This document shows, in pieces, positions 18,025 to 39,998 of a stretch of 44,750 bases of DNA. Origin of the DNA: Propionibacteriaceae bacterium (GTDB lineage Bacteria; Actinomycetota; Actinomycetes; Propionibacteriales; Propionibacteriaceae); the NCBI GenBank assembly GCA_009780915.1, contig WQZD01000022.1, forward strand, positions 1-44,750, written 5' to 3'. Below the pieces are notes generated by a model. That model saw only the letters and a program-made list of their open reading frames with translations, was not told where the DNA came from and did not search any database. Every line of letters starts with the position of its first letter. The first letter of the stretch is position 1. Made by a program: the position numbers and the translations under genes.

Positions 18025-19443
18025 TCACCGTTTGTTCAGATAGTCGAGCAGTTCCGCACGCTTATGGATGCCCATCTTCTCGTAGATGTGCTGGATGTGG
18101 CTGTTGACGGTGTGGGTGGAGATCACCAGCTTCGCGGCGACCGCCGACGCCGTGTACCCGCGCCCAAGCAGCCCGAGGATCTCCCTCTCACGCGCGGACA
18201 GGCGGAATTGGTCGGCGATGGAGGACACCGTGGACACCCATTCGGTGGCGTCCAAAGGAGAGTGGGTCAGGTCGTTGATCGCGTACTCCTGCCTGACGAG
18301 AGGCACGAGCAGACCGGCCAGGATCGCGACGAAGAGCAGCAAGGTCGGCGTGACGCAGTCGCGCATCACCAAGGTGTGGGCCTCGTACAACAGGGCGCTT
18401 CCGTTGCCCAGGCAGATCCCCAGACGGATGGCCGCCGCGCTCATCCCGAACGCGGTCGCCGCGGGGACGTACCCAGACAGGGTCAGGCGGGCCATGTACA
18501 TGATCACCAGCACCTCGAAGACCGAGGAGACGGCCAGCGCCAGCAGGAAGGCGCCGAAATCGATGCTCACCCGCACCGCTGCCAGGAGGCAAGCGAGGAT
18601 GGTGCAGAAGACCAGCCACGGGAACAGCCGGAAGATCGTGGGCTTGTTGGGGGCGAAGCGTTGGATGAGGGGGATCCCGAGGACGAGGACCGCGCCGATC
18701 GCGACTCCCCCGGTGAAGCTCGGCCCCAGGCCCCAGGCCAGATCGCTCCACGGGACGATGGCGACCACGAAATAGGAGACGAAGGCGGCCACGAAGGAGA
18801 TCCCGCAGACGGTGACGATCCTCACGGTGCCCTGACGGGTTGTCTTGCGGGGAAGCATGGGCGGGTACGTCGACCCCTGCCCGGCTCGCCAGCCGATGTC
18901 GAGGAGCAGCCCCGACGCCAAGGGCATCAGCGCGACGAAGACCGGCGAGGCGATGGTGGGCAGGAAGAATGCGGCCGCCAGACCGACCAACAAGGTGATC
19001 CCATACGTCGGGGCCAGGCGGCCGGCGGTGAACTGGGCGCGTTGACAGGCGTACCTCTCCCCCCACATCACCCAGAGGAACCCCGCGCAGACCCCCACCA
19101 CGGCACTGCCCACGTATGTGACCACGGGCGAGGCGCCCGACGCGAGGGTCACCGCGAGGGTGGCGACGCACCCGCCCACGGCGATGCTCCAGATCAGACC
19201 GGAGGTGTGCGGAAGGTGGCGGGTGCGCCCCAAGGCGAGCGCGATCAGCACGACGGTGACGACCGTGCAGGACAGCGCGGTCATCCAGCCGTACGTGATG
19301 TGATCGGCCAGGAGGAAGACGGTCGGAAAGGCGCTGGGAACGAACCACAGACAATAATGCCACGCCAGCACGAGGGCGAGCCCGAGGTACTTCAGGTGAG
19401 ATCCGTTGGCGATGAACTCCATCGCCTGCCGTCGATTCGCCAC
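18025..19443 (-). CDS. LuxR-family regulator with multi-span membrane N-terminus
   Basis: About 472 residues. The first ~390 contain about ten to twelve hydrophobic spans (for example GLALVLAWHYCLWFVPSAF, VVTVVLIALALG, TLLVGLAAAFFLPTIASPVF, GAVLVLGIPLI). The last ~65 form a LuxR/FixJ-type helix-turn-helix (LSAREREILGLLGRGYTASA, then KLVISTHTVNSHIQHIYEKM). Such membrane LuxR proteins are plentiful in Coriobacteriia and are usually found beside transporters or redox operons whose substrate they may sense. It lies 273 bases beyond the end of the cai/fix cluster, in the same direction, so it is the obvious candidate regulator; this is inference. GTG 19443 has GGGGAGGG eight bases upstream; ATG 19422 is an alternative. 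Confidence 0.83.
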   Translation of the reverse strand: MANRRQAMEFIANGSHLKYLGLALVLAWHYCLWFVPSAFPTVFLLADHITYGWMTALSCTVVTVVLIALALGRTRHLPHTSGLIWSIAVGGCVATLAVTLASGASPVVTYVGSAVVGVCAGFLWVMWGERYACQRAQFTAGRLAPTYGITLLVGLAAAFFLPTIASPVFVALMPLASGLLLDIGWRAGQGSTYPPMLPRKTTRQGTVRIVTVCGISFVAAFVSYFVVAIVPWSDLAWGLGPSFTGGVAIGAVLVLGIPLIQRFAPNKPTIFRLFPWLVFCTILACLLAAVRVSIDFGAFLLALAVSSVFEVLVIMYMARLTLSGYVPAATAFGMSAAAIRLGICLGNGSALLYEAHTLVMRDCVTPTLLLFVAILAGLLVPLVRQEYAINDLTHSPLDATEWVSTVSSIADQFRLSAREREILGLLGRGYTASAVAAKLVISTHTVNSHIQHIYEKMGIHKRAELLDYLNKR

Positions 19444-19716
19444 GATCACCGCCCTCCCCGAGGACTCGTCGCCACGCGTGGTCGTCTCCCTATGGCGGTC
19501 CCCGGACGAGGCATGCCGACGACGGCCCGACTCATTCCCCGAAAACTCCACCGCCTGGAACTTCGCGCATGGCTTTTCACTGTTCGGTAATCATGATAGC
19601 CCTTATTGAAGGGAGCGATGCCTGACTGCCGCATCGTTCTCTACTCTCTGTTGACTCCCGTTGTTGCACGCGCCATGCCGGGGACGCTCACCTCGACTCC
19701 CGTTCGAGTCTCCGAC

Positions 19717-20019
19717 CTAGCCGTATCGATATTCGATACCCATCATAGCGGCTGGGAACCTCCACACGGCCACGGCGCCACCCTGGGCCACGATGCGGCA
19801 GGTGCCGCATTCGAGACATCCGGCGAAGTCAGCGGACTGTTGGCCGTCAGGACTCACCCGGTACAGTCCGGCCGGGCACACCCTGACCAGTTCCATGAAC
19901 TGCGCCATGTCCGGATTGGGGGCGAGTTCGATGTGCGGATTGCCTTCGTCCACCTCGTACTTGTTCAGGCCCAGGTAGGCATCGACGTTGACGGGCGTCG
20001 TCTCTTTGTTGGTACTCAT
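19717..20019 (-). CDS. fixX: FixX ferredoxin-like protein
   Basis: 100 residues (E. coli FixX is 95). It shows the family landmarks CPAGLY and GCLECGTCRI, with the Cys ligands of a [4Fe-4S] cluster, and the start NVDAYLGLNKYEVDEGNPHI typical of FixX. It would pass electrons with FixC between the FixAB flavoprotein and the quinone pool. ATG overlaps the fixC stop (ATGA). Last gene of the cluster; no strong terminator follows, only a short hairpin near 19600-19613. Confidence 0.9.
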   Translation of the reverse strand: MSTNKETTPVNVDAYLGLNKYEVDEGNPHIELAPNPDMAQFMELVRVCPAGLYRVSPDGQQSADFAGCLECGTCRIVAQGGAVAVWRFPAAMMGIEYRYG

Positions 20020-21302
20020 ACTGCTTTCATCCCCTTACGAGCGTCGCGGGCGAGATTGAGCAAGCCCACTTTCTTGATCATCGGCCACATCACCTTGCGC
20101 ATCGGCTTCATCCCCGATCCGTCGACGAGGAAGACCTTGCGCATCATCTGAGCGGCCATGTCCGGATAGGTCCCGAACATCCTGGGGGTGTGCTCCATGA
20201 AATCGGGGAAGTGGCGCAGGGTGCGCAGATCGTTCATGACGAAGGATCCGTCGAGGGCCTTGACGTACCCGGCCAGTCCGGCGGCGGAGGTGTCGCCCGC
20301 GTCGAGAGCGTCGGCGGCGCTACGGCCGGCATGCATCCCGGCGGCGATGGCCAGGTCCATGCCGCGCACGGTGTACCCCGCGTTCAGGCACATCATGGCG
20401 GACTCGCCAGCCAGCATCACCCCGTCGCCAACGAGCGCCGGCATGGCGTCGTACCCGCCCTCGGCCACCAGGTGGCCCGAGTGCTCCACGACCGTGCCGC
20501 CCGCGATGACCGGGGCGACCGCCGGATGGTTCTTGAAGTCCTCCAGCATCTGGGGGATCGCGACGTCGGAGTCGACCATGTCGGCGACCGTGGCCACGAT
20601 GCCGATGGAGATGGACTCCTTGTTCGTGTACAGGAAACCGCCGCCCACACGTCCGTGCGTGGGGTCTCCCATGAACAACCAGGCGGCGCCTTCACCGTCC
20701 GCGCACGCGACGCGGTCGGAGATGACCCTCTCCGGCAGTTCGATGACCTGCTTCACCCCGACGGCCACCGAGGACCGGGCCGGACGGGGGGCGCCGACGG
20801 CCTGCTCGGCGAGGAGGGAGTTCACCCCGTCGCAGAGGAGGACCACCTCGGCGGTGATCTCGTCGTCTCCGGCTTTCACGCCGGTGACGCGGTCGCCCGT
20901 CTTGAGCAGCTTCTCCACGGGGATGCCGTTGATGTACTCCGCGCCGGCCGCTTCGGCCTTCGAGGCCAGCCACGGGTCGAACTTCGCGCGTAGGACGGTG
21001 TAAGACTCCACCCCCGGGCGACGCATCTGCTCGTCGGTGAACTCCACCATGACCCCGGACTCGGGCGCCAGCATGGAGATCCGTTCCCTCACGACTCGAC
21101 GCTCCAGAGGCGCGTCCTCCAGGAAATCGGGGAAGACGTCCGCGAGGGCGTGGGTGTACAACCTCCCCCCGGACACATTCTTGGCTCCACAATAGTTGCC
21201 ACGTTCGACGACGAGGACGCTTTTGCCTCGTGCGGCCAGCTCATGGGCGGCGACCGGGCCAGCACAGCCCGATCCGATGACGATAGCATCAAAATCAGCC
21301 AT
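20016..21302 (-). CDS. fixC: FixC, ETF:quinone oxidoreductase-like flavoprotein
   Basis: 428 residues, the same length as E. coli FixC. The N-terminal FAD motif is VIGSGCAGPVAAHELAARGK; CGAKNVSGGRLY, SYTVLRAKFDPWL, GGGFLYTNKESISIGIV and GYTVRGMDLAIAAG are shared landmarks. In the FixABCX complex it accepts electrons from the bifurcating flavin of FixAB and, with FixX, passes them to quinone or on toward the acceptor dehydrogenase. ATG 21302 has AAGGAG seven bases upstream; the gene overlaps the end of the transporter gene by eight bases and the fixX start by four. The cluster splits fixAB from fixCX by three genes, unlike the E. coli order. Confidence 0.93.
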   Translation of the reverse strand: MADFDAIVIGSGCAGPVAAHELAARGKSVLVVERGNYCGAKNVSGGRLYTHALADVFPDFLEDAPLERRVVRERISMLAPESGVMVEFTDEQMRRPGVESYTVLRAKFDPWLASKAEAAGAEYINGIPVEKLLKTGDRVTGVKAGDDEITAEVVLLCDGVNSLLAEQAVGAPRPARSSVAVGVKQVIELPERVISDRVACADGEGAAWLFMGDPTHGRVGGGFLYTNKESISIGIVATVADMVDSDVAIPQMLEDFKNHPAVAPVIAGGTVVEHSGHLVAEGGYDAMPALVGDGVMLAGESAMMCLNAGYTVRGMDLAIAAGMHAGRSAADALDAGDTSAAGLAGYVKALDGSFVMNDLRTLRHFPDFMEHTPRMFGTYPDMAAQMMRKVFLVDGSGMKPMRKVMWPMIKKVGLLNLARDARKGMKAV

Positions 21303-22635
21303 GGCCATTCTCCTTTCTCTCATTCAGTGAACTTGCTTGCGACAGTGTCAGCCCCCGCGTCTCGGGGGCCATGAAGACAGACATCACCAGGGCGAGGACC
21401 AGCAGGCCGCACCCGATGAGCATGGTGGGGCCGATCCCGTACGACTCCAGGAACAGGGGCAGCCCATAGGTGGACGCGACCACGCCGACACGGCTGATCG
21501 CGATGGCGACGCCCACGGCGGTGGCCCGCACCTCGGTGGGGAACAACTCGTTGGGATAGAGCCATTGCAGGATCCCGGGCCCCCCCGAGAAGAAGGCGTA
21601 GATGGCGAAGGCCACGATGATGACCAGGATCGGGGCGCCGGGCACCACGCCGGGGATCGCCAGTCCGACCGCCATCAGCGCCAGGCTGCCGATGAGCAGT
21701 GGGCGCCGGCCCAGGGAGTTCAGCCAGAACATGGCCGGGACGGACCCGATCAGGAAGAACAGGCTCACGACGGTCTCGCCGAGGATCGAGGCCCGCCCCA
21801 CCCCCAGTCCGAAGGCGGACATGATACGCGGGCCGAAGGTGTACATCGCGTACATCGGCACCACCTGGCACAGAATCAACACGCCCAGATACACGATCCG
21901 GGAGAAGTATCCGTGCCGGAAGACTTGCTTGAATCCCATCTTGTGGGGGACCTCGTCCTCGAGGTCGATGCAACACCCGTACACCCTCTCCATCACGGCG
22001 CGCGCCTGCTCGGTGCGTCCGCGCTGGGCGAGCCAGCGCGGGGATTCGGGGATGTCGTGGCGTCCGATGAGCAGGACGATGCAGGGGATGACGGAGCTGG
22101 CGAGCATCCAGCGCCACCCGCCGTCGACGGTGTAGAGGAGGTAGCCGATGAAGGCGGCCATGGTGGCGCCCAGGTACCAGGAGGCCGAGACGATGCCCAT
22201 GCCGATGGCCCTCTGGCGCTTCGGCACGAACTCGGCGATCAGCGAGGTGGCGATCGGGTAGTCGGCGCCGATGAAGAACCCCAACAGGAAGCGCAGGACG
22301 ATCAACTGCCACCCGGCGTCCACGAAGACACAGGCGAGGGAGACCAGGCCGATCGCGGACACGTCCAGGATGAACATCAGGCGCCGCCCGAAGGCGTCGG
22401 TCATACGCCCGCCGACCAGGGCGCCGAAGAAGATGCCGGCCAGCGACGCGGCCCCGATCAGGGCCGCGTGCGTCGTCGATAGGCCCAACGTCATCGTCAG
22501 ACCACCCAGAGCCACGCCGATGATCGACAGCACGTACCCGTCCAGGAAGGATCCTCCGGAGGAGAAAACGGTGACCTTCACGAGGAAACGGTTCATACAC
22601 GCGTCGTCGATGGCGTGGCTCTGGGCGTCAGACAT
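21295..22635 (-). CDS. YaaU-type MFS transporter
   Basis: 446 residues, about twelve membrane helices. Sugar-porter/AAHS-type MFS signatures are present: GRRLM after helix 2, PESPRWLAQRGR before the central loop, and LYPNELFPTEVRATAVG. The FSSGGSFLDGYVLSIIGVAL and SGGPGILQWLYPNELFPTEV stretches closely recall E. coli YaaU, which is encoded just after fixABCX there. Its co-occurrence here with cai and fix genes supports a role in moving the pathway's substrate or product. It begins three bases after the hydratase stop with GGAGC as ribosome site. The transported compound is not known; in this cluster there is no BCCT carnitine antiporter. Confidence 0.87.
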   Translation of the reverse strand: MSDAQSHAIDDACMNRFLVKVTVFSSGGSFLDGYVLSIIGVALGGLTMTLGLSTTHAALIGAASLAGIFFGALVGGRMTDAFGRRLMFILDVSAIGLVSLACVFVDAGWQLIVLRFLLGFFIGADYPIATSLIAEFVPKRQRAIGMGIVSASWYLGATMAAFIGYLLYTVDGGWRWMLASSVIPCIVLLIGRHDIPESPRWLAQRGRTEQARAVMERVYGCCIDLEDEVPHKMGFKQVFRHGYFSRIVYLGVLILCQVVPMYAMYTFGPRIMSAFGLGVGRASILGETVVSLFFLIGSVPAMFWLNSLGRRPLLIGSLALMAVGLAIPGVVPGAPILVIIVAFAIYAFFSGGPGILQWLYPNELFPTEVRATAVGVAIAISRVGVVASTYGLPLFLESYGIGPTMLIGCGLLVLALVMSVFMAPETRGLTLSQASSLNERKENGHG

Positions 22636-22638
22636 GGG

Positions 22639-23511
22639 TCAGCTCCACTCGATGATGCCCCAGTTGAGGTGCGGCTTGGCAGCCGGGTCCTCAGCGTTCA
22701 CGAGCATGAACCTAGCCTCATTGTCGCCCACCTTCCACAGGTGCGTGGCCAGCGTGTCGCCGGGGTGGACGGGAGAGGTGATGCGGGTCTTGAAGCGGGT
22801 CAGGCGCTCGGGTTCGCCGGGGATGAAGGTCGAGATGAAGTGACGCATCACGACACCGGCGTAGCTGATCGCGTGGAGGATCGGACGGGGCTCGTCGTTC
22901 TTCGCGGCGTACTCCCAGTCGATGTGCTGGGGGTGGAAGTCACCCGACAGGCGATAGATCAGGGCCTGGTTGAACGGGATGGTCTCGGTCACCACGACGT
23001 CCGGGTCACGATCAGGCATCTCCACGACGTCCTTCGGCGGTGTCGGGCCGCCCCAGCCGCCGTCGTAGATCAGGCAGTCCCAGCTCTCGTTCGTGCACAG
23101 GAGTTGACCGTCCGAGTCGTAGGTGTCGCCGATGTGCTGAGCGAGAAGGCCGCGGCCCTCGCCCCGGTCGTACAGCCCCTCCAGGCGCACCTTGGTCTCC
23201 AGATGGTCGCTCATCTTGGTGATCGGGCGGTGGAAGCGGATGTCGAAGCCCCAATGCAGAGAGCCAGCGTAGTTGTAGCCGTAGTCGATGGTGCGAGTGA
23301 CCTCGGAGTCCACGATCAGCATCGCGGCGAACATCGGCAGCACCTTCAGCTGCGGGTCGCGCTCGTCGTGCTCGTTGAGGTAGATCAAGTCCTCTTTACC
23401 GTCCAGGCCGGCGCCGCAGCCCAACGCGAACAGTTCGAGGTCCTTGAAGGTGTAGTCGCGCTTGAACGGGCCGAAAGTCTGCCCGACCATGCTCGTGTCG
23501 ATGGTACCCAT
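22639..23511 (-). CDS. MaoC/hydratase-2-type 2-enoyl-CoA hydratase
   Basis: 290 residues with the double hot-dog layout of peroxisomal-type hydratase 2. The second half holds the signature YRLSGDFHPQHIDWEYAA: the catalytic Asp (191) and His (196) are in place, but the Asn usual in GD-x-NPLH is His (193) and the Leu is Gln. RPILHAISYAGVVMRHF is another landmark. Hydratase 2 adds water to trans-2-enoyl-CoA to give the (3R)-hydroxyacyl-CoA, or runs in reverse. In the cluster it takes the place of the crotonase CaiD, so it would dehydrate a 3-hydroxyacyl-CoA ahead of reduction by CaiA. AAAGGAA precedes ATG 23511. Confidence 0.8.
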   Translation of the reverse strand: MGTIDTSMVGQTFGPFKRDYTFKDLELFALGCGAGLDGKEDLIYLNEHDERDPQLKVLPMFAAMLIVDSEVTRTIDYGYNYAGSLHWGFDIRFHRPITKMSDHLETKVRLEGLYDRGEGRGLLAQHIGDTYDSDGQLLCTNESWDCLIYDGGWGGPTPPKDVVEMPDRDPDVVVTETIPFNQALIYRLSGDFHPQHIDWEYAAKNDEPRPILHAISYAGVVMRHFISTFIPGEPERLTRFKTRITSPVHPGDTLATHLWKVGDNEARFMLVNAEDPAAKPHLNWGIIEWS

Positions 23512-23559
23512 ATGTGATTCCTTTCTTGGTTGTGTCCGGTGCGTCCGGGGTGTCGCAGA

Positions 23560-25113
23560 TCAGCTCAAAGACCGCTTCTCGATCTTCATGCTGGGCGTAC
23601 GAGGGAATTCGGTGACGAATTCGATGATGTGGGGGACCTTGAACTCGGCGAGGCGCCCGCGGCAGTACGCTTCCACCGCGGCCGCGTCCAGTCCGCAGTC
23701 GGGGTCGGCGAGGATGAACGCCTTGACCGCCTGGTCGCGGATGGGGTCGGGGACCCCGATGACCGCCGCCTCCTTGATCAAGGGATGGGTCTCGAGCACC
23801 GCCTCCACCTCGCAGGCGGAGATGTTCTCGCCCGCTCGTTTGATGAGGTTGCAGGCCCGTTCGACGAAGTAGAACCACCCGTCGGCGTCCATGTAGCCGG
23901 TGTCCGAGGTGCGCATCCACCCGTCCTCGCCCAGGGTCGCGCGTGTGGCTTCGAGGTCGCCATAGTAGCCCGCCATCAGCGTCCGTCCGGTGACGCCTTT
24001 GATTCGGAACTCTCCCACCTGTCCGGCTGGGAGGGGTTGTCCCTCCGGACCCACGATGGCGACCTCGTAGCCTAGGCCCGCACGGCCCACTGACGGCCAC
24101 CGGCGCTCCCCGAGGGGAGGATCGGTGACCACCCAACAGATCGACTCAGTCGATCCGTACGAATTCAACAGTCTGACCGCGAAGCGCGACGTGAAGGCAT
24201 CCTTGTCCTCGTCGCTCAGCGGCATGAAATACAGGGCCTCCCGCACGCGATGGTCCCGATCCAGGGGGTCCACCGGCTGCTTGAGCAGGGTGCGCGCCAA
24301 CATCGCCGTCAATTGGATGACGGTGGCGCCCTCCGCGCGCACATCGGCCCAGAAACGACGCGCGGAATAGTGCTCGACGAGGACGAGAGTCGCCCCCGCC
24401 ATGATCGTCCCCGTCAGGGCGACCAGTTGGAAGTTCGAGTGACAGGCCGGCATCGTGGTGAAGATCCGGTCGTCGGGACGCAACGACGCCTGCCAGATCG
24501 CATAATGGCCGGAGTAGACCAGGTTGGCGTGGGTGACCATGACCCCCTTGGGAGCGGCCGTGGTGCCCGACGTGAACATGATCTCGGCGATGTCGTCGCT
24601 ACGAACGGCCGCGTCATCCACGCCTGGCTCGTCTCGTACCTCGGGCTCAGAGGGCTGCGACCCTTCCCAGGGATCGCAGTCCTGATCGTGAACGATCAGG
24701 AGTCCGCCGGGCAGGACACCGTGTACTGCTCGAAGGCCCTCATGGAGGTCGCGGTTCCCCGCTTCGACCACCGCCCATCCGGGCTGGCAGGTACGGTAGA
24801 TGCCCGCGACTTCCGCGGCGGTGACACCTAAACCGATGGGCACGGCGATCGCGCCCATCTTGGCCAGCCCTAACAAACATGCTATGAACTCGCCGCTGTT
24901 GCGGATCTGCATGGCGACGATGGAGCCGCGCGAGATCCCGCGTGCGGTGAAGCAGCGCACCGCGCGAGCGACCTGCAGGTCGAACTCGCGGTAGGTGTAC
25001 TGCGTGCGTTGCCCTGTGGCCGAGAGGAAGACGAGGAAGGTATGGTCGGCATTGGCGCGTGCTGTGGCATCCCACGCGTCACCGAATGTCGTCGAACCGA
25101 CGATGTCGACCAT
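23560..25113 (-). CDS. caiC: CaiC-like acyl/betaine:CoA ligase
   Basis: About 517 residues, the length of E. coli CaiC. Adenylate-forming motifs: P-loop MFTSGTTAAPKGVMVTHANL, NSYGSTES (A5), GEFRIKG, GWMRTSDTGYMDADGWFYF (A7/A8), and the C-terminal TPSMKIEKRSL with the catalytic Lys. It makes the starting CoA thioester of a carboxylic acid with ATP, priming the cycle that CaiB then sustains by CoA transfer. ATG 25113 has AGGAAGG eight bases upstream. It lies 25 bases after fixB and 48 bases before the hydratase. Substrate range cannot be read from sequence; the CaiC label rests on context and similarity. Confidence 0.83.
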   Translation of the reverse strand: MVDIVGSTTFGDAWDATARANADHTFLVFLSATGQRTQYTYREFDLQVARAVRCFTARGISRGSIVAMQIRNSGEFIACLLGLAKMGAIAVPIGLGVTAAEVAGIYRTCQPGWAVVEAGNRDLHEGLRAVHGVLPGGLLIVHDQDCDPWEGSQPSEPEVRDEPGVDDAAVRSDDIAEIMFTSGTTAAPKGVMVTHANLVYSGHYAIWQASLRPDDRIFTTMPACHSNFQLVALTGTIMAGATLVLVEHYSARRFWADVRAEGATVIQLTAMLARTLLKQPVDPLDRDHRVREALYFMPLSDEDKDAFTSRFAVRLLNSYGSTESICWVVTDPPLGERRWPSVGRAGLGYEVAIVGPEGQPLPAGQVGEFRIKGVTGRTLMAGYYGDLEATRATLGEDGWMRTSDTGYMDADGWFYFVERACNLIKRAGENISACEVEAVLETHPLIKEAAVIGVPDPIRDQAVKAFILADPDCGLDAAAVEAYCRGRLAEFKVPHIIEFVTEFPRTPSMKIEKRSLS

Positions 25114-25138
25114 ATCCCTCGCCTTCCTCAGATGGTGG

Positions 25139-26035
25139 TCACAGTGCTTGGACAAGTGCGGGCAAGACCTCGTAGAGATCCCCCACGACGCCGTAGTCGG
25201 CTTGCGCGAAGATCGGAGCGTTCTTGTCCTTGTTGATCGCGATGATCGTCTTGGCCTTGCTCACACCAGCCATGTGCTGGATCTGGCCCGAGATGCCGAT
25301 GGCGACATAGAGGTCGGGACGGATCCTGGCCCCCGAGACGCCCAGGTACCGCTCGACCGGCAGCCAGTTCACGCCTTCGGCGATGGGGCGGCTGCAGGCG
25401 ATCTCGGCGCCCAACTTGGCGGCCAACTGGTTGGCCAGGTCCAGATCGGCCTCTTCGGCGAATCCGCGGCCCACGCCCACGACACGCTTGGCCGAGGCGA
25501 GGTTGACCACCTGCTGGTGCTTGGGCCTGGTCTCCACCACGCGCAGACCGGGGGCGGAGGGGGTCGCGTCCCAGGGACGCGCCTCTCCGGGCGCCATGGC
25601 GGCGTCCGTCTCCGGCAGTGCGCCGGCGCCCACGACGAGGACGCCGGGAGCTTCGCCCAGTTCCTCCGTCGCGACGCCCAGACCGCCGTAGATGGTGCGG
25701 GTGACGGTGACGGCGTCGCCCTGGACCTCGATCCCGGCGATGGCGCGGGCCGACGTGCGCAGACGCGAAGCGACCGCCCCGGCCAGCAGACGGCTCTGCG
25801 TGTCCGACCCGAAGAGGACCAGACGTGCTCCCTGCTCGACCACCAGGTCGGCGATCGGCTGGGCGTAGCCCTCGATCATGCCGGCCCCGGCTGGGGTCGT
25901 CAGAGTCAGATCAGCGCCCGGGACGGCTTCCCCGCCGAGGCTGACCGCACCCACGAAGGTCTGGAACCCCTTGGCTCCACGGACGAGTTCCGCGGCCACG
26001 GCCGCGTCGTGTGCGATTACCCAGATTGATTTCAT
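25139..26035 (-). CDS. fixB: FixB, electron-transfer flavoprotein alpha-type subunit
   Basis: About 298 residues. The C-terminal FAD domain is clear: RYLGVSGARIRPDLYVAIGI, SGQIQHMAGVSKAKTIIAIN and DKNAPIFAQADYGVVGDLYE. With FixA it forms the heterodimer that carries the bifurcating and electron-transferring FADs. ATG 26035 is preferred over GTG 26041 because GAGGAG is five bases upstream of the ATG. It is nine bases after the fixA stop. Confidence 0.93.
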   Translation of the reverse strand: MKSIWVIAHDAAVAAELVRGAKGFQTFVGAVSLGGEAVPGADLTLTTPAGAGMIEGYAQPIADLVVEQGARLVLFGSDTQSRLLAGAVASRLRTSARAIAGIEVQGDAVTVTRTIYGGLGVATEELGEAPGVLVVGAGALPETDAAMAPGEARPWDATPSAPGLRVVETRPKHQQVVNLASAKRVVGVGRGFAEEADLDLANQLAAKLGAEIACSRPIAEGVNWLPVERYLGVSGARIRPDLYVAIGISGQIQHMAGVSKAKTIIAINKDKNAPIFAQADYGVVGDLYEVLPALVQAL

Positions 26036-26044
26036 GTTCACTCC

Positions 26045-26800
26045 TCACAGCGCTTTGAGATAGGTGGCGAGTTCGGCGGCTGCGTCTGCGGCGGCGCCTT
26101 CGATGACGATGTGCCGACGATCGACCTGCTCAGAGGCCAATTCGGACACCAGGCGAGCCGTCGGGGCGAGGACCGGACCGACCTCGAGGGTCGTGGTCGG
26201 CTTCTTGCCGGCGGCCAGCACGTCCCTCATCCCAGGGATGCGGGGGGTGTTGGCGCCCGAGGTCACGGACAGCACCGCAGGAAGCGCCACCTCCACGACC
26301 TGGACACCGTCTTCGAGAGGACGCTCGACGGTGACGTGATCGCCCTGGGGGGCGATGGTCTCCACCGCGTTGAGCGTGGGCCATCCCAGGATGGCGCCAA
26401 GCTGGTTGCCCACCTGCTGGGCGTACACGTCCGATGACCCGGCGCCCAGGATCACGAGATCGACTCCGGAGAGCTGACCCACGGCGCGCGCCAGGATGTC
26501 GGCGGTCTGGAAGGGCTCAGCCATCGGCAGGGCCTCGTCCACGACGGTGGCGAGTTCGTCCAAGCCGCGTGACAGGGCGTCCTTGGACAGCTTGGCGTTG
26601 GCGAGGGCCGATCCACCGGCGCTCAGGCCGATGACGGTCGCGTCGCCGACCTGGTCGGCCAGTTGGCGAGCAGCCTCGATGGCGTTCAGGTCATAGGTGC
26701 CGATCTTCCAGACGGCCCGGTCCAGGTTGAGACTCCGGTCGGGACGGGCTTGAATGTCTTGGGCCTCGGGCGAGACCTTGAAACAGGCAACGATTCTCAT
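26045..26800 (-). CDS. fixA: FixA, electron-transfer flavoprotein beta-type subunit
   Basis: 251 residues (E. coli FixA 256). It starts MRIVACFKVSPEAQDI; the family landmarks TYDLNAIEAARQLADQ, KDALSRGLDELATVVDE, GAGSSDVYAQQVGNQLGAIL and ANTPRIPGMRDVLAAGKKP are clear. FixA binds NADH in the bifurcating complex. ATG 26800 has AAGGAG seven bases upstream, placed just after the caiB stop. A longer open frame upstream is a shadow of caiB. Confidence 0.94.
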   Translation of the reverse strand: MRIVACFKVSPEAQDIQARPDRSLNLDRAVWKIGTYDLNAIEAARQLADQVGDATVIGLSAGGSALANAKLSKDALSRGLDELATVVDEALPMAEPFQTADILARAVGQLSGVDLVILGAGSSDVYAQQVGNQLGAILGWPTLNAVETIAPQGDHVTVERPLEDGVQVVEVALPAVLSVTSGANTPRIPGMRDVLAAGKKPTTTLEVGPVLAPTARLVSELASEQVDRRHIVIEGAAADAAAELATYLKAL

Positions 26801-26810
26801 TTGATTCTCC

Positions 26811-28040
26811 TTATTCGGTTCCTGTTGCGGATGGGGGGAGCACGACGCCGGATTCGACGAACTGGGCGATCTGCTCGTCGGTGTACCCCGCCCGACGCAG
26901 AACGTCGACGGTGTCGTACCCGTGGCCCGGCATGGGACGCCAGGTGCGGCCGGGGTTGCGCTGGAAGACCGGGAAGACTCCCAGGCCCTTGAACTCCTCG
27001 CCGTCGGCGGTCTGCCAGTTCTGCCACACTCCACGACGCTCCAGATGCTCCTCGGCCACAAGGTCGGGGAACTCCATGACTTTCTGAGCCGCGATGCGGT
27101 GGGCGGCGAAGTCTTTCTCGACGTCGTCCACGTTGCGGGTGGAGAGGTACTCCTCCAACTTCGCCTCGATCAGTTCCGCCTTGGGGCTGGACAGCCACAG
27201 GCCGGACGTGTCCTCGGGATAGTCGGGGGTGCCCCACAGCTCGCCGAGTCCGATGACCTCCAGCAAGTACTTGTTCTGCGGGACCCCGTACACGCACAGG
27301 CCGATGAAGCCGTCCGCGCACCGGTACTCGCCGATCGCGCACAGGTTCTGGTTGCGCGCGCCCGGACGAGGCCAGATGATCCCGGCGTTGAGGTAGTCGA
27401 CCAGGTAGTACTGCCCGATGGACAGCAGGGTCTCGTACATCGCCACGTCGACGCTCTCGCCCTTCCCGGTCACGCCCACGCGGTGCAGGGCGGCCAAGGT
27501 GGAGGACAGGATCATCAAGGAGTTGATGTAGTCGCCGGCGTACGGCCCGGGGTTCACGGGCTGCTCCGGGGTGCCGTTCTGGCTCATGTACCCGCTGTAG
27601 GCCATGACCGTCAGGTCGTACGCGGCCCGGGTGACCATCTCGGGGACGCCCGTCTGGCCGAACCCGGACACGTGGACGATGACCAGCTTGGGGTTGCGGG
27701 CCCACAAGACCTCGTCGGAGATGCCACGCTTGGCGAAGGTGCCGCCCTTGCTCGCCTCGATGAACACGTCCGCGTTCTCGATCATCTTGAGGAGGACCTC
27801 GGTGCCTTCTGGGGAGAAGTAGTCCAAGGCGATGGAGCGTTGGTTGCGCCGTTCGGCCTGCTTGATCCACGCCGTGTCGCGGATCGTGTCGCCCGCGGCG
27901 GTGTTCTCGATCCAGGTGACGTCGGCGCCCCAGTCGGCCATGAAGCAGCAGGCCTTCGGCACTGCTAGCTCCACGGCCGCATACACCACGCGGACATCAT
28001 CCAGTGTGCCGAAGGACGGCTTCTGGGTGGGGATGCTCAT
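26811..28040 (-). CDS. caiB: CaiB-type class III CoA-transferase
   Basis: 409 residues (E. coli CaiB 405). Shared landmarks include DVFIEASKGGTFAKRGISDE, NPKLVIVHVSGFGQTG, GKGESVDVAMYE and MPGHGYDTVDVLRRAGY. The catalytic Asp that forms the acyl anhydride is at about residue 170 (YAGDY). In the carnitine pathway it moves CoA from the reduced product (butyrobetainyl-CoA) to the incoming substrate, so no ATP is spent per turn. It lies between caiA (8-base gap) and fixA (10-base gap). The closeness to CaiB over the whole length suggests a carnitine-like or similar short acid, but class III transferases shift substrate easily. Confidence 0.9.
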   Translation of the reverse strand: MSIPTQKPSFGTLDDVRVVYAAVELAVPKACCFMADWGADVTWIENTAAGDTIRDTAWIKQAERRNQRSIALDYFSPEGTEVLLKMIENADVFIEASKGGTFAKRGISDEVLWARNPKLVIVHVSGFGQTGVPEMVTRAAYDLTVMAYSGYMSQNGTPEQPVNPGPYAGDYINSLMILSSTLAALHRVGVTGKGESVDVAMYETLLSIGQYYLVDYLNAGIIWPRPGARNQNLCAIGEYRCADGFIGLCVYGVPQNKYLLEVIGLGELWGTPDYPEDTSGLWLSSPKAELIEAKLEEYLSTRNVDDVEKDFAAHRIAAQKVMEFPDLVAEEHLERRGVWQNWQTADGEEFKGLGVFPVFQRNPGRTWRPMPGHGYDTVDVLRRAGYTDEQIAQFVESGVVLPPSATGTE

Positions 28041-28048
28041 GGGTGCTC

Positions 28049-29185
28049 CTACTCGGCGTACTGGCGCAAGACGCCCTTGGCGACGGTGAGGATCATCATC
28101 TCGTCGGTGCCACCGCTGATGCGCTCCACGCGGAGGTCGCGCCACAGACGCTGGATCCTGTGGTCGCCGGCCACGGCCACGCCGCCCAAGATCTGGATGG
28201 CGTCGTCGACCACGTCGGCGGCCGCGTTGGTGCAGAAGTACTTGCACATGGCCGCCTGCGCGGAGGTCATCTCACCCTTGTCGTAGCACCACGCGGTTTC
28301 GAACAGCATGTTCTTCATGGAGTTCAGACGGATGGCCATCTCGGCGAACTTCAGCTGGTTGAGCTGGAAGCGGCCGATCGGCTTGCCGAACTGCACGCGC
28401 ACGTTGGCGTAGCGAGCGGCGTCCTCGAAGGCGCCCAGGGCCCAGCCGTAGTCACAGGCGCCGACCAGGAAGCGCTCGAGGTCGAAGTCCTTGATGCCGC
28501 GCTTGAAGCCGTTGCCCTCTGTGCCGAAGATGTCGGACTCGTCCAGTTCGACGTTGTCGAGGTAGACATCGGAGCAGGAGTCCATACGCAGGCCCAGCTT
28601 GTGCAGCGGCTCGATCTTGATGCCCGGAAGGCTCATGTCGACGAAGAACTCGGTGAAGACGTCCCGGTCGTCCGCGTTGCGAGCCATGATCACCAGGTAC
28701 GGCACGTGGGCCGAGGAGGTGATGAAGGTCTTGTGGCCATTGAGGTAGATCTTGCCGTCCCTGCGGGCGTACGTGGTCTGCAGGGCGCCGACATCGGATC
28801 CGGCGCCGGGCTCGGTGCAGGCGGAGTTCCAGATCTGCTTGCCGGTGCCGACGTAGGACAGCGCCTTCTCGATCTGGACGGGGTTGCCCTCGCGCAGGAT
28901 CGTGTCGAAGCAGGGGAGCTGATAGAGCACATAGGTCGGCGCGCACCAGCGGCCCAGTTCTTCGTAGACCGCGGCCAGGGTGACCAGACCCATGTTGAGG
29001 CCGCCGTGCTCCTCAGGAAGCATGATGAGATCGAAGCCGAGTTCGCACAGGGCCTTCACCCAACGCTCGGGATAGACGTGCTCGTTGTCGCATTCCGCGA
29101 AATAGGCGTCCCAGTTCTCACGTTGCATGAGCTCTCGGACACTTTGAACAAATAGCTGCTGTTCGTCATTCAGGGCGAAATCCAT
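28049..29185 (-). CDS. caiA: CaiA-type acyl-CoA dehydrogenase/crotonobetainyl-CoA reductase
   Basis: 378 residues (E. coli CaiA 380) and remarkably like it from the first residues: [43 protein letters not shown]-like [48 protein letters not shown] and [14 protein letters not shown]. It would reduce a 2-enoyl-CoA to the saturated acyl-CoA with electrons from FixABCX, the terminal step of anaerobic carnitine respiration in enterobacteria. AAGGAGA precedes ATG 29185. It is third in the cluster, behind an MFS transporter and an esterase. The run in the oxidative direction is also chemically possible. Confidence 0.92.
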
Positions 29186-29202
29186 GGTGGGTCTCCTTAT
29201 TG

Positions 29203-30213
29203 TTAGTTGGTTGTTGTTGGTTTGGGCTCTGGGGGCGTGGCGGAAACCGCCTCGCGGAAGAACGCGGCGCCCTGCCGCAAAGCGTCCATGGCTTCGGGCA
29301 GGTGCCGCGAGTTGTGTAGAAAGGCGTGCAGGACACCGGGAAAGACGACGAGACGATTGGGTGAATCATGGCGATCGAGGATCGAGGCGAGCGCTGTGGA
29401 GTCATCGCGTAACGGGTCCAATTCGGCCGCCACGATGAACGCGGGAGGCATCTGGCGCAGGTCGGCGGAGAGACAGTCCACATAGGGGCTGTACGCGTCC
29501 TCCGGCGAGGCCAGATAGCACTGCATGTAGTAGTCCAGGTCCTCTTGAGCGCACCCATCCCAGGGCCCGCCCAAGAGTCGCCGCGAGATGGAGTCGCGCA
29601 ACCCGAACATACCGTAATAAAGCAACAGAGCTTTTACGTACCCCGTTCCTTCGCCCATCTCATCCCTCAGATAGAGGTAAGACCCGAGGCACAGCATCGC
29701 ACCACCTGAATCGCCGGCGAACCCCAATTTGTCGCCGTCAATGCCGTAATGAGCCCCGTTTTTGTGAAGGTGCTGAGCCACCGACACACACTGCACTACG
29801 GCTGTGGGGAATTTGGCCTCGGGGGAGAGCGAATAATCAACCCCGACCACGATTGACTTCGTCTCGTCGGCCAGGACGCGCATGATCTTGTCATGGGTGT
29901 CGAGGCCGCCGAGTACGAAGCCACCTCCGTGGATGTAGACGATCGCGGGAGACTTTGGGGGAGCCCCCTGCGGGGTGTGGAAACGTACAGTCACTTGCCC
30001 ATCCGGCGTAGCTATCTCCGTATCGCGGGTGCTGCTCATCGCGGGCCCGCCTTCGTTCCAATAACGGCGCTCGAGAACGTATGCCGCACGCATGGCCTCG
30101 AAACCGGCGGAGGTGTCGTAGGCCTCAGGGGCCAACTCCGCAGATATCCGGACGACATCGCGCATCGCATCGGACAACATATCCAACACGGGCAGCTTAT
30201 TCTCGGCAACCAT
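29203..30213 (-). CDS. Aes-type (HSL-family) acetyl esterase, alpha/beta hydrolase
   Basis: 336 residues. [18 protein letters not shown] carries the oxyanion-hole HGGG motif, GDSGGAM holds the nucleophilic Ser, and the Asp and His of the triad fit ELDPLRDD and [32 protein letters not shown] and [17 protein letters not shown] closely recall E. coli Aes. It would hydrolyse a short-chain ester in the cytoplasm. It begins 19 bases after the first MFS gene's stop and ends 17 bases before caiA, so it belongs to the operon. This suggests that the imported compound is an ester (for example an O-acyl derivative) that must be opened before CoA activation. TAGGAGT precedes ATG 30213. Confidence 0.87.
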
Positions 30214-30232
30214 CGTCTACACTCCTATGCCG

Positions 30233-31564
30233 TCACGCCGATGCGGGCGTGGACGGCTCATCAATCGCTGCCCTCTTCTTGTTGCGCAAGTAGAAGAACA
30301 GCACCAGGGAAGACACCGCAGCCAGGACGGCTGAGATGATCAGGATCATGAAGATCATTTGGTACGCGCTGGCGCTGACGGCGCCGGCCGTGTCCGTATG
30401 AGAGTCCATGATCGCGCCGAACCATGTGCTGGAGAAGGTGTCGGGCAGGAACCCGATGATCGACAGCAGGCCGGTTGCGGCACCGAAATAATGCAGGGGG
30501 ACTTTGCCCTCTGTGAGTTGGGCGGACACCACCGAGAAGGAGCCGTTGGCGATGAAGCCGAGCAGGACCACGAGGATGAGGGCGACGACGACCATGCTCG
30601 ACTTCTCGGGCAGGATCATGAGAGCCAGGAGGGCGACGATGAACGCCAGCGACCCGGCGACGATGACACGCGACGGCTTGAACCGGTTGGCGATGAAGCC
30701 GAACGCGGGACCAGATATGAGCGTGATTCCATAGTTACGGATGTTGGCGATGATGGTCGTGACCGCCAGGGACGCGCCGAGGATGCCCGTCATGTACGGA
30801 GTCGTGTAGGTGACGCCGGTGTAGAAGAAGTAGACGAAGAACAGCGAAATCGCGGCGATCCAGACCACAGGGTTACGGAAGGCTGAGACGAACTCCGACA
30901 GGTTGAAGCCGCTGCCGTCGGACTTGATCTCGTCCGCGAACTTGGGAATGAACAGCCAGGACAGGATGCCGAGCAGCATGATGAGGCCCGCGAGGAACCA
31001 CAGGTAGATCGACACGCCGAGGTTCAGGTTCGTCCCGACCATGGCCACGATCGCAGTGGACACCAAGCCGATGAGGAGGCCGGCCACGCCGTAGATGCCG
31101 TAGGACAGGCCGATGCGCTTGGGGTACTCGTCTTCTTTGGACACCAGTCGCACCAGCTTGTAGCGCACGCCCCACCAGATGAAAATCGTGGTGATGCCCA
31201 TGCAGATGAACACGACGTACAGCAGAGCGAGGCTCGGCAGCATCGCGTAGACGCCTGTCAGGATGGCCGTCGAGATGAACCCGACGGACGAGAGGGTGCG
31301 CATGCGCACCTTGTCCGCGATGATGCCGGACGGCAGATAGCAGATCAATGCGGTGATCGCATATGCGCCGAACACGGCGCCGAGTTCTGTGTTCGTCACT
31401 CCCAGCGCCTTCTGCAGCGGATCATAGAAGACCGCCTTCAGATAGGCGGGAGCGTAGATGATAGAACTCCCGATACTGGCGAGGATGAGGATGAACCACC
31501 GCCTACCGGCGCTGATTTGGTCATACGTCAACTCGCCATTACGCGAGGGCGTCGATGCCGACAT
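30233..31564 (-). CDS. MFS transporter, YihN-like
   Basis: 443 residues with about twelve membrane helices (for example WFILILASIGSSIIYAPAYL, FGAYAITALICYLPSGIIAD, GLSYGIYGVAGLLIGLVSTA, LFFYLRNKKR at the end). The loop after helix 2 (ADKVRMRTLSS) is the MFS signature. It most resembles the YihN/YqcE-type or OFA-type carriers, but I cannot place the substrate. First gene of the cai/fix cluster, with a near-perfect AAGGAGG site before ATG 31564, and preceded by an AT-rich control region. It may bring in the substrate, with the second MFS transporter exporting the product, or the reverse. Confidence 0.83.
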   Translation of the reverse strand: MSASTPSRNGELTYDQISAGRRWFILILASIGSSIIYAPAYLKAVFYDPLQKALGVTNTELGAVFGAYAITALICYLPSGIIADKVRMRTLSSVGFISTAILTGVYAMLPSLALLYVVFICMGITTIFIWWGVRYKLVRLVSKEDEYPKRIGLSYGIYGVAGLLIGLVSTAIVAMVGTNLNLGVSIYLWFLAGLIMLLGILSWLFIPKFADEIKSDGSGFNLSEFVSAFRNPVVWIAAISLFFVYFFYTGVTYTTPYMTGILGASLAVTTIIANIRNYGITLISGPAFGFIANRFKPSRVIVAGSLAFIVALLALMILPEKSSMVVVALILVVLLGFIANGSFSVVSAQLTEGKVPLHYFGAATGLLSIIGFLPDTFSSTWFGAIMDSHTDTAGAVSASAYQMIFMILIISAVLAAVSSLVLFFYLRNKKRAAIDEPSTPASA

Positions 31565-31830
31565 AATTAAGCCTCCTTTTGTAGCTGTGCTGGATCAGGT
31601 GTGTCCCGTGTGACTGTTCGCAGCGATGCTATCCATCATTTATATGGCATCTAGTAGCTGGAATCATCCAAGATTATTGATGAATCTGCGAATTATTAAG
31701 AACGCATTGGATCCCCAAAACATCCATCACTAGCAAGTAATGAGCTCTGTGACAAGGTATTACTCAAGATCTAGCAAATTTCGATATTTGAAACTATGTA
31801 ATGAACCCCCGTTATTGAAGATCATTAACT
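31565..31830 (-). promoter_or_regulatory. AT-rich control region of the cai/fix cluster
   Basis: Clearly more AT-rich than its surroundings. It holds three imperfect dyads: GATGC/GCATC with CCAT/ATGG inside (31625-31651), overlapping a TATAAA-like -10 on the minus strand (31639-31644); GAATCATC/GATGAATC with 7 of 8 arm positions matched (31661-31686); and CAAAT/ATTTG (31775-31790). The words 'atccatca' and 'atcatcca' recur. Such dyads suit a LuxR-type dimer, but no consensus is known for this protein. Confidence 0.45.
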
Positions 31831-34793: not shown

Positions 34794-37700
34794 TGGATGA
34801 TCTCCGAATCGCATGTGCCCTTCACTCGTTCGATCACGACGGCGAGTTCGGGGGTGACTACCAGGGAATCGAGTGCGCCCGGCTTCATGCGGGACACGTC
34901 AAGGGCCTCGCCGTTGACCACGATCGTCGTCTGCTCGAAGATGGCCGGCAGCTCTTGGTAACACGTGGCGCAGTCGGTGCACTTGGGGATGTCCTGCTCG
35001 GCGAGCCAGATCGGCGCGCCCGCAGGCTTCGGGCCCAATCCTGACGCGCTGGGCGCGACAGGGGCCGTCTCGGCAGCCGGGGCGGCCTCGGCGGCAGCCG
35101 GAGCGACCGGCTGGACCGGCGCCGCGCCAGCCCCGAAGCTGGGGATGGACACCGACCCCGACTTGGCGCCGGTGGCCAGCTGTGCCAAGGCGTGGGCGAT
35201 CTCGTCCAAGCCCTGCTCGCGACCCGTCTGCGCGTCGGCTAACTCCGCCTGAAGGGCCTTCAGGGCCTTCTCGGCGTCCTTGGCGGACAACTCGGCGTCA
35301 CGCCCGGCGAGGAACCGCAGCAACTGCCAGTTGCGCTGGCGATCCTCGACCAGGGACACGATCGTGCCCGACACCGCCATCTGGACCAGACGAGAGTTCG
35401 CGTCTGTGGTGACGATGTACGGGGTACGACCCTTGCGCGCCGACGGCGCCAGAGCCACGTACTCCGCGATCGGTGTGGGCAGCGGAGCGTCGGCGGCCAG
35501 ACGCTTGTAGTGCTTGGCGAACCGGATCTCGGCGTACGCGAACTCGGCCGGGGTGTACGGCATGCTCATCACCTGCGTGGCGCCAGAGGCGTCCACGTGC
35601 CTCAGGTTCTGGGTCGCCCACGCCTTGTCGATCTCGGGGTTGCCGTCCAGCGAGAGCCGCTCGGGCATGGTGTCGCCGGCCATGGGGTCATGGACGAACA
35701 GCGGCGCCATGCGTGAACGTACCGCCATGCGTGCGCGCTCGTTGGACATGTCGTCGCCGAAGCCCTGTTCGAAGCCGCAGGGGGTGTAGACCTGCAGGAG
35801 GGCCGACCCGTGCGGGTAGCCGATCATGCGAGCCGACGCGGCCAGGAAGTGGGAGTGCATCGCCGTCGAGACGGAGGCCACGTACACATCCGGGTGCATG
35901 GCCGCCAGGAGGGCGAGTTCCTTGCGCTTCTCCTCTTTACCCTTGTGAGCCTTGCCGTACCTGGCCAGGTCGGCGTTCTGACCCGTGTACGAGGCCGTGG
36001 ACGCCTGGCCGCCGGTGTTGGAGTAGCCACCGGTGTCGAGGATGAGCATCTTGACCGGGGTCTGGCTGGTGAGCACCCTCGACATCGCGCCGAAGCCGAT
36101 GTCGTAGGCCGCGCCGTCGCCGGAGATGGTCAGGACCACGGGAAGCGCGTCCATCTCATCGTCGGTGAACTGCCGCCACGTCAGAGTGGACAACGCCTTG
36201 TCATGGACCTTCGGGTCGTAGGCGTCGGCCAGTTCCAACTCGGCCACGCGACGGGCCTTGACCTCGTCGACATAGTGGGACACGATGCCTTCGAAGACGC
36301 CCACGGCGGACGCCTGCGCGTCTTGGAACAAGGAGTTCAGCCAGGGCTGGGTGAAGGGGTTGGACGGGAACGTCGACGCGTACACCGACGAGCAGCCGGT
36401 TGAGTTGACGATGACCGCCGAGGAGGGTCCGCGACCGGTCGGTCCGGACTCGTACAGCCACAGGCTCGCCTCCAACTGCTGGATAGCGGCATGGATACGC
36501 TCGGCGCGGACCAGGTCCACAGAACTGACCTTGCTTGTCAGGCTGTAGATCAGGGATTCGATCTCGCCGATGTGACGGGCGCGCTTCTCGCGGCCGACCG
36601 TCTGCGCCAACGCGGTGACCAAGTGGGTCGCCGTGACCTCGCCGCAACCCTTGCACGCGCCGTGGCCACCGGCCAGGGCGTAGTACGAGTCGTGGTCCAT
36701 GAGGATGCGCTTCGCGTCGCCGCCCGGGCTCGCCGCCCCTTCCATGAACCGCTCAGGGGTGTTGGGCAGTTGGGTGAACCGCGCGAACGTGGCTTCCATC
36801 TCCTCCACGGACTCGTCGGTCTGCGCCATCGAGCTGAGGGCCCCGGGGCCGCAGACCTCGACGCACTGCAGGCAGCCGGTGCACTTCCACGGGTCGATCA
36901 CGACGGAGTACATCGCCCCGGAGCCGGGGGTCTTCTTCTCCATCTGGTCGAAGATCGGGCGGATGCGTCCGACGGGGAAAGCCGCCACCTCGGCCATGAT
37001 GGCGTCCAGGTGCTCCTTCGTCAGGTTGGGGATGACCGTGGCCGTCGAGGCGACGACGTCGGCGAAGCCCTTGGCCTTGGTGTCCTCGAGCAGGTCCGCA
37101 CGGATCTTCTCGGCCCATGCGGCCACGAAGGTGAGCAGGTACGCCTTGTGCTCGTCCTGCAGACGGGCCGAACGCACGGCGCGGGTCAGCAGGTCGACGA
37201 TCTCATGGGCCTGGTTGGGGATGGCCGAGTCGGGGCACGCGAGCGCGCACTCCAGACAGGCCGTGCACTTCTCCAGATCGACCACGGGGGCCTCGCGACG
37301 GAAGATGCCCTTGTTCTTCGCCGCGCCGGTGGCCGGCGGGATGAACATGCCCGTGCCCGGAAGGACCGGCGCCTGGCCGGCCCAGCCCTCGCGGAAGGGG
37401 CGGGCGATCATGTCGTCGAAGTACGCGGGGTCGTACAGCCCCGACGGCGCCGACCCCGTGGAGGGGACGAGACGTCCGGACAGGACGGGCAGCTTGTTGA
37501 CCGTGGTGGCCTCGGCGGAGAGGAACTCCGGCAGCGAGTAGTCGACCTTCTGGGTGGCGTCGATGGCGTCCACGACCACAGCCATGTTGCCGTCGACGAC
37601 GGCCGCGCCCTTGGACCCGAACTTCTTCTCCAACTCGTGGCGTGCCAGATCCTTGGCCTGCTGCTGATCGGCGCCGTGCGTGATGCGGTCCACGTGGCCG

Positions 37701-39766: not shown

Positions 39767-39941
39767 ACTGGACACCTTTCCTTCTTTGGGAAGTTCTCGC
39801 CGATTGGCAAGCGACGCTATGAGTTGAGATGTTAGCAGGTCTTCGGACCCTCGCGCTCCTTGGTTCGACATGTGCGACGCATGATCGCCTCGCACCCTTT
39901 CCCAACCCCATGAGTCAGGTGTGCGCGGACTGCGGACATGC

Positions 39942-39978: not shown

Positions 39979-39998
39979 TGAGGCGGCTACTAACAGCC

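Follow-up and report, generated by a model that had tools for sequence, protein, structure and literature searches.

The window analysed here is the entire 44,750-nucleotide contig WQZD01000022.1 (G000:C22) of a Propionibacteriaceae bacterium, whose genome assembly (2.78 Mb, 45 contigs) is 99.4% complete. Positions 31564–19717 carry, on the minus strand, a run of eleven co-oriented open reading frames (ORFs), spaced by 3–48 bases or overlapping shortly, as had been described in a previous reading made from the letters of the DNA (hereafter the sequence-only reading). The order MFS1, esterase, CaiA, CaiB, FixA, FixB, CaiC, Hyd2, YaaU, FixC, FixX combines counterparts of the carnitine (Cai) and Fix proteins of E. 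coli with additional carriers and enzymes. Families were called with Pfam and NCBIfam models, and identities to E. coli K-12 proteins were obtained with blastp. The members of the cluster are:

30233..31564, minus strand: MFS1, major facilitator superfamily (MFS) carrier, first gene (PF07690)
29203..30213, minus strand: Aes-type esterase, proposed to hydrolyse acylcarnitines (PF07859; 418.7 bits on NF007547, acetyl esterase, cut-off 389)
28049..29185, minus strand: CaiA, crotonobetainyl-coenzyme A (CoA) reductase (NF002885, identity to the E. coli protein, tree)
26811..28040, minus strand: CaiB, carnitine CoA-transferase (NF002914, PDB match)
26045..26800, minus strand: FixA, electron-transfer flavoprotein (ETF) beta-type subunit (NF002888, 232.6 bits, cut-off 219)
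25139..26041, minus strand: FixB, ETF alpha-type subunit (PF00766, PF01012)
23560..25113, minus strand: CaiC, betainyl-CoA ligase, 517 codons as in E. coli (best match NF005947)
22639..23511, minus strand: Hyd2, MaoC/hydratase-2-type enzyme, proposed crotonobetainyl-CoA hydratase (PF01575, PF22622)
21295..22635, minus strand: YaaU-type MFS carrier, proposed for carnitine/gamma-butyrobetaine traffic (PF00083)
20016..21323, minus strand: FixC, ETF-quinone oxidoreductase-like (NF007450, 488.9 bits, cut-off 466)
19717..20019, minus strand: FixX, ferredoxin-like, closing the gene run (NF011993, 109 bits, cut-off 166)

For CaiC, the ATG at 25113 was preferred as the start to the TTG listed at 25155, since the alignment with E. 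coli CaiC begins at residue 16 of the longer ORF; for FixC, an ATG near 21302 may be an alternative start. The Pfam and NCBIfam matches support the earlier statement that a hydratase-2-type enzyme, an Aes-type esterase and a second MFS carrier are embedded in the cluster.

CaiA and CaiB pass the cut-offs of the NCBIfam models for carnitine enzymes: CaiA scores 692 bits on NF002885 (crotonobetainyl-CoA dehydrogenase, cut-off 540) and CaiB 653 bits on NF002914 (L-carnitine CoA-transferase, cut-off 413). The solved structures in the PDB closest to the window CaiB are those of E. coli CaiB. In an IQ-TREE phylogeny of 49 CaiA rows, with YdiO as the sole outgroup on a very long branch (2.93), the window protein lies among the actinobacterial rows and E. 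coli CaiA adjoins them (separating branch 96/84). The tree for CaiA and the model scores for both proteins thus favour carnitine enzymes over a placement among general acyl-CoA enzymes, the outcome that the sequence-only reading had named as a refutation of its own view. Identities to the E. coli proteins are 67% for CaiA, 44% for CaiB, 40% for CaiC, 49% for YaaU, 44% for FixA, 39% for FixB, 48% for FixC and 51% for FixX. While the window CaiA is much closer to E. coli CaiA than to YdiO (44%), FixA is 48% identical to YdiQ, and FixB, FixC and FixX resemble YdiR, YdiS and YdiT to about the same degree as their Fix counterparts. The earlier description of the whole set as close to that of E. coli therefore holds mainly for CaiA. 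Because the Fix proteins are roughly as close to YdiQRST as to FixABCX, the electron module is to be regarded as generic and the Cai part as specific. FixA and FixC exceed the cut-offs of their subfamily models, and FixB and FixX were assigned by similarity alone.

Blastp searches with E. coli CaiT, CaiD, CaiE and CaiF found no match among the cluster proteins at E 1e-5. CaiT is also absent from the rest of the genome, which encodes no PF02028 (BCCT) protein; the same search was positive in 4 of 14 genomes used as a control. No CaiD was recognised among the four crotonases of the window genome, two of which were scored with NCBIfam models and two named by eye. L050 is of the short-chain enoyl-CoA hydratase type, has no CaiD row among the 25 NCBIfam matches listed, and lies beside a 3-hydroxyacyl-CoA dehydrogenase-like frame (neighbour identified by eye). 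L051 (G000:C1:215974), the best CaiD resemblance in the genome, is a crotonase fused to a thiolase-like part; its crotonase part is 41% identical to E. coli CaiD, and it reaches only 200 bits on the NCBIfam CaiD model (cut-off 500). L052 is MenB-like and L053 resembles 3-hydroxyisobutyryl-CoA hydrolases (both by eye). CaiE had no match in the cluster or in the genome, the genome search having been run without a positive control; the earlier claim that CaiT, CaiD and CaiE are missing stands for the cluster.

The arrangement as such is not new, and what the sequence-only reading put forward as its central novelty has already been published for the cheese bacterium Propionibacterium freudenreichii. 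The Scoary2 study (PMC11007987) describes in this species a cluster that begins with an MFS gene, ends with fixX and includes caiABC and fixABCX but, in its account, neither caiD nor caiT, and suggests that an MFS gene and an enoyl-CoA hydratase "might fill these gaps". According to the same study, yogurts made with strains possessing the first MFS gene and the hydrolase were depleted of acylcarnitines, most strongly of octanoyl- and decanoylcarnitine, and were richer in carnitine and putative gamma-butyrobetaine; it also reports pseudogenisation of the cluster in many P. freudenreichii isolates. Since this carnitine-linked cluster also lacks caiD and caiT, their absence from the window is no sign of a different substrate. 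Another study (PMC7650540) proposed, from homologues of fixABCX and caiABC, that P. freudenreichii and P. acnes use carnitine as a terminal electron acceptor. The product of bacterial carnitine reduction, gamma-butyrobetaine, is made into trimethylamine by other gut bacteria (PMC8364193).

A scan with CaiB retrieved 48 loci, 47 of them titled Actinomycetota (61–82% identity), while the remaining one (L048, 27%) was dropped. All 47 actinobacterial loci contain the gene set, complete or partial, so that the cluster is not a chance assembly; a search for it in other genomes had been suggested by the sequence-only reading. The carriers are Propionibacteriaceae, Cellulomonas-like bacteria, Actinomycetaceae and gut Coriobacteriia, and include G007, a genome of the same genus as the window genome, whose CaiB and Hyd2 lie at the coordinates of locus L001. 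An MFS1 homologue is found in 44 of the 47, a set that includes several truncated loci. The interleaving of cai and fix genes noted earlier is shared as well: in 16 of the 47 loci fixA comes immediately after caiB, and 12 of these 16 extend as far as caiC. A Hyd2 gene was found in 38 loci, in one of them partially, and five of the other nine stop short of its place. The remaining four, of Eggerthellaceae type, span the position but lack Hyd2 there, and a crotonase lies in the neighbourhood; Hyd2 is absent from the whole genome in two of these, and G021 and G022 carry it elsewhere. Wherever the Actinomycetaceae-type loci (L028–L039, L042, L043, L045–L047) were compared with the window, Hyd2 was 75–85% identical, CaiA 58–63% and FixA 29–36%, and hence the genes of the cluster differ in history or constraint. 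Locus L036 (4080–10000) contains a tandem duplicate of MFS1, esterase and CaiA, the second MFS1 being apparently partial, and in Gordonibacter (L021:1–3900) a second, inverted set of CaiC-, CaiB- and CaiA-like genes, 22–28% identical, lies beside the carnitine cluster.

Co-inheritance was assessed in whole families. Among 198 genomes of the window family (CaiB at E 1e-120, Hyd2 at E 1e-40), 13 have CaiB and 14 have Hyd2; Hyd2 occurs in all 13 CaiB genomes versus 1 of the 185 without CaiB (Fisher P-value 2e-19), the extra one being G317, a 59% complete genome with Hyd2 at a contig edge. In the Eggerthellaceae, taken as the family of G020 (named by the title of L020; 138 genomes, crotonase at E 1e-60), CaiB is present in 37 genomes, Hyd2 in 34 and the crotonase in 36. 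Hyd2 was found in 32 of the 37 CaiB genomes versus 2 of the 101 others (P-value 1e-23), and the crotonase in only 1 of these 101. The 37 CaiB genomes divide into 30 with both enzymes, 2 with Hyd2 only, 5 with the crotonase only and none with neither, and in all five that lack Hyd2 the crotonase lies within 15 kb of CaiB; in L061, L062 and L063 it adjoins YaaU. Hyd2 lies within 15 kb of CaiB in 30 of 32 genomes; for the crotonase this is true of 29 of 35 genomes, and the remaining six have it on different contigs. These patterns of occurrence bind both Hyd2 and the crotonase to the carnitine system. What is new here is that Hyd2 tracks CaiB and that the five CaiB genomes without Hyd2 carry a crotonase beside the cluster. 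Of the 30 genomes whose Hyd2 carries Ala214 (see below), 29 have no match to the Eggerthellaceae crotonase at E 1e-40, the exception being the fused L051 domain of the window genome (40% identity); the other genomes each had 2–14 first-look crotonase candidates, none passing. Hyd2 is thus likely to be the dehydratase where the Eggerthellaceae-type crotonase is absent, with the proviso that other crotonases may exist there.

Hyd2 has the hot-dog fold of hydratase 2: its closest PDB entry is human MFE-2 (E 1e-33), and Foldseek, queried with the predicted model, ranks 1s9c first. The alignment and the structure job drew on 27 sequences from the 39 available for the window and the other loci. The AlphaFold model has a mean pLDDT (predicted local distance difference test) of 69, with most of residues 186–215 below 50, and because of the low values at the active site no argument about facial choice was built on it. 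The enzymes of the hydratase-2 family are (R)-hydratases that share the motif YRLSGDxNxLHIDPxxA with catalytic Asp, His and Gly, and mutation of each of these three residues abolished the activity of a Phytophthora enzyme, to levels differing across the three mutants (PMC3823801). The motif was inspected in 62 Hyd2 rows, which correspond to 60 genes (L001 is partial and lacks the motif, while L022 and L060 are one gene, from G153) and include 25 of the 34 Eggerthellaceae Hyd2 genomes (20 fetched and five represented by L019, L021, L022, L023 and L024). Asp191 and His196 are invariant in all 60, i.e. the catalytic Asp and His of hydratase 2 are kept, and all 60 depart from the motif at two positions, where His193 replaces Asn and Gln195 replaces Leu. 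The position of the catalytic Gly is occupied by Ala214 in 37 genes, including that of the window, and by Gly in 23. Every Gly214 form belongs to a genome of the Eggerthellaceae set, and 22 of these genomes also have the crotonase (the remaining one, G043, has neither crotonase nor CaiB). The split fits a single change on the tree, on a branch with weak support (72/32), and its correlation with the crotonase therefore counts as one event. On the crotonase side, 27 rows were examined, representing 26 genes (L025 and L102, from one genome, are the same gene), and two glutamates at the positions we take to be catalytic in CaiD are kept in all 26.

Taken together, these data make it likely that this actinobacterial operon serves to reduce carnitine under anaerobic conditions, with carnitine, fed by acylcarnitines, as its best substrate. 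MFS1 would import acylcarnitines or carnitine, and the Aes-type esterase would free carnitine from acylcarnitines, as suggested by the association seen in P. freudenreichii. CaiC could then prime the cycle with a CoA ester, CaiB would transfer CoA from gamma-butyrobetainyl-CoA to carnitine, and Hyd2, with its MaoC fold, is proposed to dehydrate carnitinyl-CoA in place of the crotonase CaiD. The resulting crotonobetainyl-CoA would be reduced by CaiA with electrons from the FixAB and FixCX flavoproteins, of which FixCX may provide the link to quinone or ferredoxin, and gamma-butyrobetaine would exit via YaaU or MFS1. The general scheme of the sequence-only reading, a CoA-linked reductive pathway with hydratase-2 dehydration, reduction by CaiA and FixABCX-type electron supply, thus finds support in gene identity, not in chemistry.

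Several observations weigh against this interpretation. CaiC (605 bits on NF005947, cut-off 651) and FixX fall below the cut-offs of their equivalog models, and FixB below those of both NCBIfam FixB/YdiR-type models. The gamma-butyrobetaine of the yogurts was identified only putatively (PMC11007987), and another passage of PMC7650540 says that homologues of FixABCX were not found. An inner stop interrupts CaiB in G280 and G318, and the cluster of G280 is broken. The Fisher P-values, which range from 2e-19 to 3e-29 across the surveys, ignore shared ancestry. The coexistence of Hyd2 and crotonase in 30 of the 37 Eggerthellaceae CaiB genomes led us to drop a simple swap of one for the other in this family, as it fails to fit most of its members; moreover, the five Eggerthellaceae crotonases that were scored reach 172–193 bits on the CaiD model (cut-off 500), and by this measure are not CaiD. 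In the enzyme of PMC3823801 the change from Gly to Ala abolished activity, and the Ala214 of the window Hyd2 is a point against an ordinary hydratase-2 mechanism in the Ala form.

The final difficulty is stereochemical, and it leads to the most serious alternative. L-carnitine is (R) only because its C4 bears nitrogen, and its geometry is that of (S)-, i.e. L-3-hydroxybutyrate. Crotonases such as CaiD act towards L-3-hydroxyacyl-CoA and hydratase-2 enzymes towards D-3-hydroxyacyl-CoA; by this family rule Hyd2 would be expected to serve D-carnitine, which again speaks against the proposed role. Either Hyd2 has switched face, as its rebuilt active site may indicate, or its substrate is D-carnitine and L-carnitine is handled by a different enzyme. 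The more novel reading, which is less likely than not, is that a face-switched Hyd2 dehydrates L-carnitinyl-CoA, the switch being marked by His193 and Gln195, plus Ala214 where the partner crotonase is absent, while the Gly214 form, by serving D-carnitine, would complete a two-enzyme carnitine epimerase with the crotonase. It is somewhat less probable, and on the whole unlikely, that Hyd2 acts on D-carnitine throughout and a crotonase on L-carnitine, with the Eggerthellaceae pair as a carnitine epimerase and a house-keeping crotonase doing the corresponding work in the window genome. This would agree with the joint presence of both enzymes in the Eggerthellaceae, with the retained glutamates of the crotonases and with the other crotonases of the window genome (L050 and the fused L051), which other Ala214-Hyd2 genomes may have as well; it is opposed by the lack of an Eggerthellaceae-crotonase match in nearly all Ala214-Hyd2 genomes, and D-carnitine is not known to be an abundant natural substrate.

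The view of the sequence-only reading that the substrate is probably not carnitine itself is not supported. According to this alternative, which we regard as improbable, the cluster processes another 3-hydroxy or enoic acid, a change of which Hyd2 and the extra carrier would be the signs. The hydratase fold and the carriers do differ from those of E. coli and CaiC remains under its cut-off, but CaiA and CaiB exceed the carnitine cut-offs, CaiA groups with E. coli CaiA, CaiB has E. coli CaiB as its structural match, and in five Eggerthellaceae genomes close CaiB homologues are paired with the crotonase and not with Hyd2. The P. freudenreichii cluster, in addition, has a carnitine phenotype (PMC11007987). 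An oxidative course, from gamma-butyrobetaine to crotonobetaine or carnitine with FixABCX electrons passed to quinone, fits the ETF-quinone-oxidoreductase-like character of FixC (a weak PF21162 match) and is nevertheless the least credible of all. The component reactions are reversible in principle, but the published association is with loss of acylcarnitines and higher putative gamma-butyrobetaine (PMC11007987), and fixA and fixB are needed for anaerobic carnitine reduction in E. coli, according to the title of one study.

Surveys keyed to caiT or caiD would miss the actinobacterial version of carnitine reduction, and a hot-dog hydratase acting on the opposite face, if real, would be a useful catalyst for L-carnitine. 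In the open-licence papers covered here we noticed no hydratase-2 or MaoC protein in carnitine metabolism beyond the unspecified "enoyl-CoA hydratase" of the Scoary2 study; PMC6370202, which names a carnitinyl-CoA dehydratase and MaoC, lay outside this scope.

Two features next to the cluster may concern its regulation:

18025..19551, minus strand: LuxR-type regulator, called from C-terminal LuxR-type matches; its N-terminal part is long and hydrophobic (by eye)
31727..31743, minus strand: candidate operator, imperfect palindrome TCACTAG-N3-CTAGTGA with 2 mismatches, which lies 179 bases 5' of the start of MFS1

The LuxR-type gene is a candidate regulator in place of CaiF. Among Propionibacteriaceae-type loci 6 of 10 have a homologue, among Cellulomonas-like ones 3 of 5 and among those of Coriobacteriia 11 of 13; the 17 Actinomycetaceae-type and 2 other loci have none. 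Of 43 upstream stretches, nine contain the palindrome with up to 3 mismatches (that of the window and eight of the other 42), 152–186 bases upstream of MFS1. All nine carriers are Propionibacteriaceae- or Cellulomonas-like by title or tree, and eight of them have the LuxR-type gene; the related loci L002, L011 and L018 show the palindrome only at 5–6 mismatches. Over whole loci its matches do not exceed those in shuffled sequence (10 versus 14), and since the motif was picked from the same sequences, the P-values are optimistic.

Directly upstream of the cluster (32106–34814) lies a PRK12779-type fusion of glutamate synthase beta and a flavoprotein, no counterpart of which was noted next to the cluster at the other loci. 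It is adjoined by a pyruvate:ferredoxin oxidoreductase (34790–40117, the start at 40117 being probably too far upstream); PMC7650540 proposes the genes flanking this type of oxidoreductase as a Fix-like complex. The ORF at 39999–44708 (about 1569 aa) has many immunoglobulin-like repeats and a C-terminal hydrophobic stretch (by eye) and no notable NCBIfam family, and it is probably a surface protein.

Comparison with known systems places the window cluster nearest in composition to that of P. freudenreichii, with which it shares an MFS carrier, an alpha/beta hydrolase, caiABC, the hydratase, a second MFS carrier and fixABCX, and likewise the lack of caiD and caiT. Locus L058, from a genome we take to be P. 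freudenreichii DSM 20271, matches the window cluster in gene content and, fixAB apart, in gene order, and its Hyd2 is 77% identical. In the window fixAB stands between caiB and caiC, whereas in L058 fixABCX forms one block after YaaU, and the LuxR-type gene 3' of fixX is found in the window, unlike in L058. The esterase and YaaU of L058 are each in two pieces and its CaiB contains a stop, which fits the pseudogenisation reported in PMC11007987. The E. coli caiTABCDE and fixABCX-yaaU genes have in common with the window the homologues of CaiA, CaiB, CaiC, FixABCX and YaaU, but they form divergent operons instead of a single run, and the window cluster lacks homologues of CaiT, CaiD, CaiE and CaiF and adds Hyd2, the esterase and MFS1. 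The hydratase 2 of peroxisomal MFE-2 (1s9c) shares its type and the catalytic Asp and His with Hyd2, which differs from it in having His193 for Asn, Gln195 for Leu, and Ala214 in 37 genes or Gly in 23. Finally, the E. coli ydiF-ydiO-ydiQRST-fadK set contains a FixABCX-like module of about equal similarity to that of the window, while its YdiO is only 44% identical to the window CaiA. The CoA-transferase annotated in that set is YdiF, which is not of the CaiB type.

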